The notes under the pieces: generated by a model
What the model saw: the letters and a program-made list of their open reading frames with translations, nothing else
Database searches by the model: none
Told to the model about the DNA's origin: nothing
Position numbers and translations under genes: made by a program
In this document: piece by piece, positions 40,350 to 41,145 of the stretch
Position numbering within the stretch: position 1 is the stretch's first letter
Layout of the letters: each line of letters opens with the position of its first letter
Source of the DNA: Bacteroidota bacterium
GTDB taxonomy: Bacteria; Bacteroidota; Ignavibacteria; Kryptoniales; JAKASW01
Length of the DNA: 64,000 nucleotides
Direction: 5' to 3'
Assembly: GCA_023381615.1 (NCBI GenBank)
Contig: JAMCQL010000014.1
Span: 80,569-144,568 of the forward strand

Positions 40350-40422
40350 CGCGGGGTGGAGCAGCTGGTAGCTCGTCGGGCTCATAACCCGAAGGTCGAA
40401 GGTTCGAATCCTTCCCCCGCTA
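40350..40422 (+). tRNA. Initiator tRNA-fMet (CAT anticodon)
   Basis: A complete cloverleaf: acceptor GCGGGG (40351-40356) pairs with CCCCGC (40415-40420); C1 faces T72, the unpaired 1:72 position of initiators; the anticodon stem has the three GGG/CCC pairs (TCGGG-CTCATAA-CCCGA) that mark initiator tRNAs; T arm GAAGGTTCGAATCCTTC. Discriminator A at 40422; CCA is not encoded. It is very like bacterial tRNA-fMet except that its D loop is one base shorter. Confidence 0.95.
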
Positions 40423-40423
40423 C

Positions 40424-41103
40424 AAAACAAAGTCCGCCTGAAAGCGGACTTTGTTTTTCTTAGGCTGTTAGCTCGTGGGTTCATATCCCGACTTTGTCGG
40501 GACGAAGGTTCGAATCCTTCCCCCGCTACAAAACAAAGTCCGCCTGAAAGCGGACTTTGTTTTTCTTAGGCTGTTAGCTCGTGGGTTCATATCCCGACTT
40601 TGTCGGGACGAAGGTTCGAATCCTTCCCCCGCTACAAAACGAAGTCCGCCTGAAAGCGGACTTTCTTTTTCTTAGGCTGTTAGCTCGTGGGCTCATATCC
40701 CGACTTTGTCGGGACGAAGGTTCGAATCCTTCCCCCGCTACAAAACGAAGTCCGCCTGAAAGCGGACTTTCTTTTTCTTAGGCTGTTAGCTCGTGGGCTC
40801 ATATCCCGACTTTGTCGGGACGAAGGTTCGAATCCTTCCCCCGCTACAAAACGAAGTCCGCCTGAAAGCGGACTTTCTTTTTCTTAGGCTGTTAGCTCGT
40901 GGGCTCATATCCCGACTTTGTCGGGACGAAGGTTCTCCCGAAGGGACTCCTTCGGAGGAATCCTTCCCCCGCTACAAGACGAAGTCCGCGTGAAAGCGGA
41001 CTTTCTTTTTCTTAGGCTGTTAGCTCGTGGGCTCATATCCCGACTTTGTCGGGACGAAGGTTCTCCCGAAGGGACTCCTTCGGAGGAATCCTTCCCCCGC
41101 TAC
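40424..41103 (+). repeat. Six tandem terminator + pseudo-tRNA-fMet units (106 or 128 bases)
   Basis: Units: 40424-40529, 40530-40635, 40636-40741, 40742-40847 (106 each), 40848-40975 and 40976-41103 (128 each). A seventh begins and breaks off at 41104-41118. Every unit consists of the tRNA terminator hairpin, then ggctgttagctcgtggg-TTCATAT-ccc (a seven-base anticodon loop with CAT), a palindrome TCCCGACTTTGTCGGGA in place of the variable region, and the intact T arm and 3' acceptor strand TTCCCCCGCTA. The 5' acceptor strand is missing. The last two units have a second palindrome (CCGAAGGGACTCCTTCGG) in the T loop. Units 1-2 differ from 3-6 by a few shared bases. The phrase MGSYPDFVGTKVRILPPLQN read across it is not a gene. 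Confidence 0.9.
40427..40459 (+). terminator. Intrinsic terminator of tRNA-fMet
   Basis: ACAAAGTCCGC (40427-40437), loop ctgaaa, GCGGACTTTGT (40444-40454), then a T-run TTTTTCTT. The stem is 11 perfect pairs. A copy lies in each following repeat unit. Confidence 0.85.
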
Positions 41104-41145
41104 AAAACGAAGTCCGCCATCGTGCGGGTCTTTCGTCATCTGGAG

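Follow-up and report, generated by a model that had tools for sequence, protein, structure and literature searches.

A tandem array of truncated tRNA copies behind a bacterial initiator tRNA gene, probably the remnant of a tRNA-linked GIY-YIG element

In the window, i.e. the whole 64,000-nucleotide stretch of Bacteroidota DNA analyzed here, an intact initiator tRNA gene (tRNA-fMet, anticodon CAT; 40350-40423, + strand; ARAGORN, and Rfam RF00005 at 65.8 bits) is followed without a gap by six head-to-tail units (40424-41103), each consisting of a terminator hairpin and a 5'-truncated copy of the same tRNA that extends from the D arm to the 3' end. No other initiator-type Met tRNA was found in the host genome (G000), whose two remaining CAT tRNAs differ from it in sequence.

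The units, all on the + strand, start at 40424, 40530, 40636, 40742, 40848 and 40976 and are alike in pairs. Alignment places the terminator hairpin of unit 1 (40424-40529, 106 bp) at 40424-40459 and its tRNA-fMet tail at 40460-40529; unit 2 (40530-40635, 106 bp) is identical. Unit 3 (40636-40741, 106 bp) is of a second type, B, with a CGAAG..CTTTC terminator and a CTCATAT anticodon loop, and is repeated exactly in unit 4 (40742-40847, 106 bp). Units 5 (40848-40975, type B) and 6 (40976-41103) share a 22-nt palindromic insert in the T loop, which accounts for their length of 128 bp, and a 15-bp partial terminator copy, AAAACGAAGTCCGCC (41104-41118, + strand), ends the array. The tails fold with a 5-bp GTGGG/CCCGC closing stem. 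Tandem Repeats Finder assigned the repeats scores of 1036 and 564, with 99% and 97% matches, so the array is not a product of chance. A preliminary description of this DNA had given the same array coordinates, unit number and unit lengths (four of 106 bp and two of 128 bp) and had called the units near-identical, all of which holds. Its further statement that every unit carries the loop TTCATAT and an intact T arm is correct in part: TTCATAT is the loop sequence of units 1-2 only, that of units 3-6 being CTCATAT, and the T arm is intact in units 1-4 only, the T loop of units 5-6 being disrupted by the insert. The host assembly is a draft (94% complete, 86 contigs), and the count of six units is therefore provisional and possibly a count of the assembly. 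Near the array, and unrelated to it, two long multi-CxxCH ORFs (multihaem cytochrome-like) lie at 43861-47156 of the window.

Two classes of perfect palindrome, neither of which figured in the preliminary description, interrupt the tRNA copies. The first, 17 nt long (TCCCGACTTTGTCGGGA; 40486-40502, + strand, in unit 1), is located 3' of the anticodon loop at the same place in all six units. The second is the insert TCCCGAAGGGACTCCTTCGGAG of units 5 and 6 (40936-40957 in unit 5, + strand; 41064-41085 in unit 6), which follows TTC in the T loop, i.e. at the 56|57 site, and a near-identical insert occurs at the same site in the tails of other tRNAs.

When the array was used as a query against 60 relatives, their tRNA-fMet loci were retrieved. 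In three genomes of the same genus (G005, G010 and G001), a terminator, a small GIY-YIG gene and an incomplete copy of tRNA-fMet come in this order behind the tRNA-fMet gene, the tails being tandem in G010 and G001; the same arrangement, with a more eroded tail, was found in G034, of the same class, and the locus of G006 is an ORF-less relic. The comparison with relatives that the preliminary description had proposed thus shows that orthologous loci carry the tail. The position of the palindrome (CTCATA|TCC..GGA|CGAAGG) is identical in the window and in the tails of G005 and G010, where a palindrome with different arms, TCCGCCTGCGGCGGA, takes the place of TCCCGACTTTGTCGGGA. Since the relatives have a tail at the same locus with the same palindrome site, the array in the window is this tail, minus the nuclease gene. 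The window contains neither a GIY-YIG gene nor a remnant of one, so the link between array and nuclease rests on orthologous and paralogous loci, and the array is at most a remnant of a homing element. Together with the evidence that follows, we put the probability at roughly 0.7 that the array is the ORF-less, tandemly amplified remnant of a tRNA-specific, tRNA-linked GIY-YIG element that would have been homing-like, in the sense of presumptive cutting and homing.

The host genome contains many paralogous loci: of its 42 tRNAs, 11 are followed downstream by a copy of their own sequence. The tRNA brackets that enclose a GIY-YIG gene include those of Gln (twice, in tandem), Leu-gag, Pro-ggg and Ser-gga, and other tails enclose nothing, as in the fMet array, Leu-caa and Val-gac (the last with three palindromes). 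At tRNA-Leu(caa) (L107, G000:C50:9640-11200), two tandem ORF-less units of 196 bp each end in a palindrome-marked tRNA-Leu tail, this being another array of the type described here within the host genome. Such ORF-less end states, with a near-identical T-loop palindrome, were also found after tRNA-Lys in G054 and after tRNA-Glu in G017. The tRNA-tail bracket can hold cargo other than GIY-YIG: the bracket at tRNA-His (L089, G000:C25:108150-110600, +1 to +850), whose tail is palindrome-marked, encloses a Gp49/RelE-type toxin-like ORF and an HTH-like ORF without GIY-YIG, and because this tail encloses a toxin-antitoxin-like pair, the nuclease may not be the sole driver.

Most of 41 relatives have 1-15 Pfam GIY-YIG genes each. 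Of 107 small GIY-YIG genes counted in these 41 genomes, 55 were within 200 bp (the cut-off used) of a same-strand tRNA, 43 downstream and 12 upstream of it, and an opposite-strand tRNA neighbor was found in a single case (1 upstream, 0 downstream); about half of the 107 genes had no adjoining called tRNA. A second copy of the cognate tRNA was present across the nuclease gene in 46 of 61 tRNA-linked cases, compared to 12 of 488 in the non-cognate control, and was not seen in the remaining 15. Two mirror classes occur, the intact tRNA preceding the nuclease gene and the damaged copy following it, or the reverse. As read from these sequences, the full element is a single-domain GIY-YIG gene of about 70-100 codons, flanked on one side by an intact tRNA gene and on the other by a damaged copy of it. 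This architecture was seen at about 15 tRNA isotypes, and nuclease units are commonly repeated in tandem, often as identical copies (Gln, Pro, Arg). Some small GIY-YIG genes without an adjoining tRNA (L034, L037, L044, L047, L053, L078 and L079) are located inside clusters of dispersed palindromic repeats (GTCATTGCGAGG.., GTCATTCCCG.., GTCATCCTGAGC..), which may represent a second association between GIY-YIG genes and palindromes.

Beyond these relatives, a cross-phylum scan (one genome per species) yielded 64 loci, drawn from Bacteroidota, several Patescibacteria, Verrucomicrobiota, Kiritimatiellota, Omnitrophota, Chloroflexota, KSB1 and others. The scan was seeded with the tRNA-Gln nuclease lineage, and the sample is therefore biased towards that lineage; within it, a same-strand tRNA adjoins the nuclease gene in 53 of the 64 loci and an opposite-strand tRNA in none (0/64), and a second cognate copy is present in 43. 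Viral contigs searched for the same tRNA-Gln-seeded lineage gave only 5 weak matches and so do not point to phages as its vectors. PADLOC gave weak partial matches only, and no PHROGs family was found at E ≤ 0.001 for two representative nucleases, PHROGs being no SegB-specific test.

The nucleases have the GIY-YIG fold (Pfam, E = 8e-18), with conserved Y, R and E columns, and the nearest solved structures by sequence profile are UPF0213 (E = 2e-9) and SLX1 (E = 1e-5). Although the nuclease tree is based on about 70 columns and is weakly resolved in detail, it required 36 changes of tRNA isotype compared to 77 in shuffled data (0 of 200 shuffles as low). Within the host genus, 9 isotype changes were counted where 18.8 were expected (0/200), whereas genome of origin showed no clustering (23 changes vs. 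21.3). Thus, the nuclease phylogeny follows tRNA isotype, not genome.

Variation at a single site was followed at tRNA-Gln, a locus that is syntenic in 13 congeners, all with the same downstream gene. The nuclease is present in 8 of the 13 (as two units in the host genome) and absent in 5, so that occupied and empty alleles exist at the same site in sister species, and some of the nuclease-less loci keep relics of the nuclease start or old tails. The occupied, tandem and relic alleles therefore document gain, amplification into tandem units and decay within a single syntenic locus. In the host genome, both tandem copies of the tRNA-Gln GIY-YIG gene (L060, G000:C74:28900-30900) read ACG where congeners have an ATG start; because of this replacement, these copies may be inactive or use another start. 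Sequence related to ACACAGAG is also found downstream of this tRNA-Gln and recurs through the genome, and short tandem repeats of the ACACAGAG type occur in the window at 27238-27440 and also at 28191 and 31259.

To define palindromes in the damaged copies, a perfect hairpin with 6 or more base pairs was taken as the criterion and applied to 86 damaged copies, their shuffled versions and 86 intact tRNAs. A palindrome was present in 70 of the damaged copies, compared to 16% of shuffles and 23 of the intact tRNAs; the other 16 damaged copies show none. Where the insertion point can be read, it is at a fixed loop position, mostly without loss of tRNA letters. Copies of tRNA-Cys and Ser-gct are interrupted at 34|35, between these two anticodon nucleotides, those of Pro, Gln and Gly at 56|57 in the T loop, which is also the site in units 5 and 6 of the array, and those of Arg and Lys at 21|22 in the D loop. 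In some damaged copies, the whole anticodon arm is replaced. In two Mucilaginibacter loci (L209 and L210), the palindrome arms of the 5' tRNA-Arg copy are composed of many CCTGCC repeats and differ between the loci by an indel of several tens of bases, which suggests that palindrome arms can expand.

These patterns are consistent with the following scenario. The nuclease would recognize its own tRNA gene and make a break, and repair of the break would duplicate the tRNA around the nuclease gene, a homing-like insertion that leaves the tRNA functional. In the spare copy, which retains the original flank, palindromes would abolish the target, and both tRNA copies would then, we propose, be resistant. 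Tandem arrays could arise from the direct repeats through additional breaks or through unequal exchange. Loss of the nuclease gene would leave palindrome-marked tails which, in the host genome, would have expanded to six units. Under this scenario, a cellular function of the array need not be assumed.

The scenario competes with three other accounts of the array. The most serious is that replication slippage or unequal crossing-over duplicated the 3' part of the tRNA together with its terminator, the nuclease of the relatives being coincidental. Direct repeats with hairpins are prone to such duplication, and the units do occur in near-identical neighboring pairs (1 = 2, 3 = 4, 5 like 6), as would be expected if the duplication was local and recent. 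Slippage amplification, an option raised in the preliminary description, may thus explain the number of units; it does not explain the tail, which is common to nuclease-bearing sister species, nor the position of the palindrome shared with these species, nor the cognate tails that flank GIY-YIG genes at many tRNAs. As an account of copy number only, it appears improbable as the origin of the array.

Less probable still is repeated integrase-type recombination at the tRNA 3' end, with partial tRNA copies left as att-like traces. The 3' parts of tRNAs are classical attachment sites, and the tail begins inside the tRNA and extends to its 3' end, as such recombination would have it. However, the intervals examined between tRNA and tail span 0.1-0.9 kb and hold a GIY-YIG gene, the Gp49/HTH pair or nothing, which is too short for an integrase, and no tyrosine or serine recombinase gene was found in them. 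Integration at the 3' end would not give the mirror class, in which the 5' copy comes first and the intact tRNA last, and it leaves the palindrome inserts unexplained. An integration hotspot was nonetheless the nearest of the four options first put forward for this array: in relatives, a gene does lie between the tRNA and its tail copy, but it encodes a single-domain GIY-YIG nuclease and no integrase, and the copy is interrupted by palindromes.

Least probable, and by a small step only, is an array of functional RNAs, in which read-through transcripts resembling tRNA-fMet or its tail would serve as decoys or regulators (cf. the E. coli tyrT repeats): although the tails keep the T arm and the 3' acceptor strand and fold with the closing stem described above, each unit has a terminator hairpin and no promoter, the units are not scored as tRNAs, the T loop of units 5-6 is disrupted, and the same anatomy with different palindromes at about 15 isotypes argues against an fMet-specific role. 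The sole tRNA called in the window, by ARAGORN as by Rfam, is that at 40350-40423, and the copies in the array are therefore not tRNAs; the covariance-model search suggested for the units yielded weak sub-threshold Rfam matches only, mostly T-arm and terminator look-alikes. The reported lack of a promoter in the units was borne out, no sigma-70-like promoter being found in 40200-41250. Two proposals of the preliminary description, that the array is a source of tRNA-fMet-like RNAs or a decoy for processing or formylation enzymes, accordingly fail on the architecture shared by about 15 isotypes, the uncalled copies and the terminator in each unit, and a decoy or formylation role in particular finds no support and is rejected because tails occur at many isotypes. 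The fmt ORF (38921-39856) is indeed about 490 bp upstream of the tRNA of the array, but its nearness, earlier regarded as suggestive, carries no weight as evidence, because tails are found at other tRNAs as well.

With the array read as the remnant of a GIY-YIG element, a broader interpretation of these elements is possible, which we advance tentatively. They might constitute a family of minimal bacterial selfish elements with single-domain GIY-YIG nucleases that are each specific for an isotype, act at the loops of the tRNA gene and duplicate the tRNA around themselves, the spare copy being shielded by palindromes exactly at the would-be cut sites; ORF-less arrays would be non-autonomous derivatives. 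This family would span Bacteroidota, Patescibacteria, Verrucomicrobiota, Omnitrophota, Chloroflexota and others, and its substrate would possibly be an extruded cloverleaf or cruciform. SLX1 is a structure-specific nuclease, and SLX1-like action of the small GIY-YIG enzymes on branched or cruciform tRNA-gene DNA is conceivable, as a lead only. Bacteroidota and candidate phyla have many small single-domain GIY-YIG genes, for which we know of no established role; the tie to isotype and the palindrome-broken spare copy give them a testable target and a likely lifestyle, with 34|35, 56|57 and 21|22 as candidate cut sites. Such elements would also account for puzzling tails behind tRNA genes and for sequences wrongly annotated as tRNAs.

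Among known systems, nucleases of the UPF0213/YhbQ type and SLX1 are the nearest to the small tRNA-linked enzymes by sequence profile, and to our knowledge neither is linked to tRNA genes. In E. coli tyrT, tandem units behind the tRNA gene each contain a copy of the tRNA 3' end; these repeats resemble the array in their tandem position, have a much shorter piece of tRNA, and include, so far as we know, no palindrome inserts or nuclease. REP palindromes are genomic palindromes tied to a dedicated small nuclease gene, RAYT, which encodes a Y1 HUH enzyme, whereas here the nuclease is GIY-YIG and the palindromes are inside tRNA copies. Tycheposon-like elements, islands with recombinase cargo, are likewise bracketed by tRNA, but the intervals here are far smaller. 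In the literature searched, in which subscription journals are thinly covered, we found no description of chromosomal GIY-YIG/tRNA duplications, and this kind of element is apparently widespread and undescribed.

The closest resemblance is to free-standing homing endonucleases, with which the present elements share an ORF beside the target gene, in relatives and elsewhere in the host genome, target-specific nuclease lineages, in this case by tRNA isotype, and occupied and empty alleles at one site, here at tRNA-Gln. In the mORFs of fungal mitochondria, e.g. at atp6, atp9, cox2 and nad3 of Glomus and Allomyces, an endonuclease ORF likewise lies beside the host gene with a duplicated gene end beyond it, and the host gene stays expressed; unlike the elements described here, mORFs occupy mitochondrial protein genes and are mostly LAGLIDADG (one is GIY-YIG), and no palindromes are reported in the displaced copy (PMC3630166). 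SegB of T-even phages is a free-standing homing endonuclease of the GIY-YIG type that is needed for the tandem amplification of tRNA-segB units, a precedent for the amplification step proposed here. It offers the same combination of a GIY-YIG nuclease beside tRNA genes, tandem tRNA and nuclease repeats and statistical co-localization with tRNAs (PMC13096335). That study is not known to describe a palindrome-interrupted second tRNA copy and reports no isotype preference, whereas the elements analyzed here are chromosomal and their nuclease lineages follow isotype (PMC13096335). These comparisons suggest a chromosomal counterpart of the tRNA-amplification mechanism of phage SegB.
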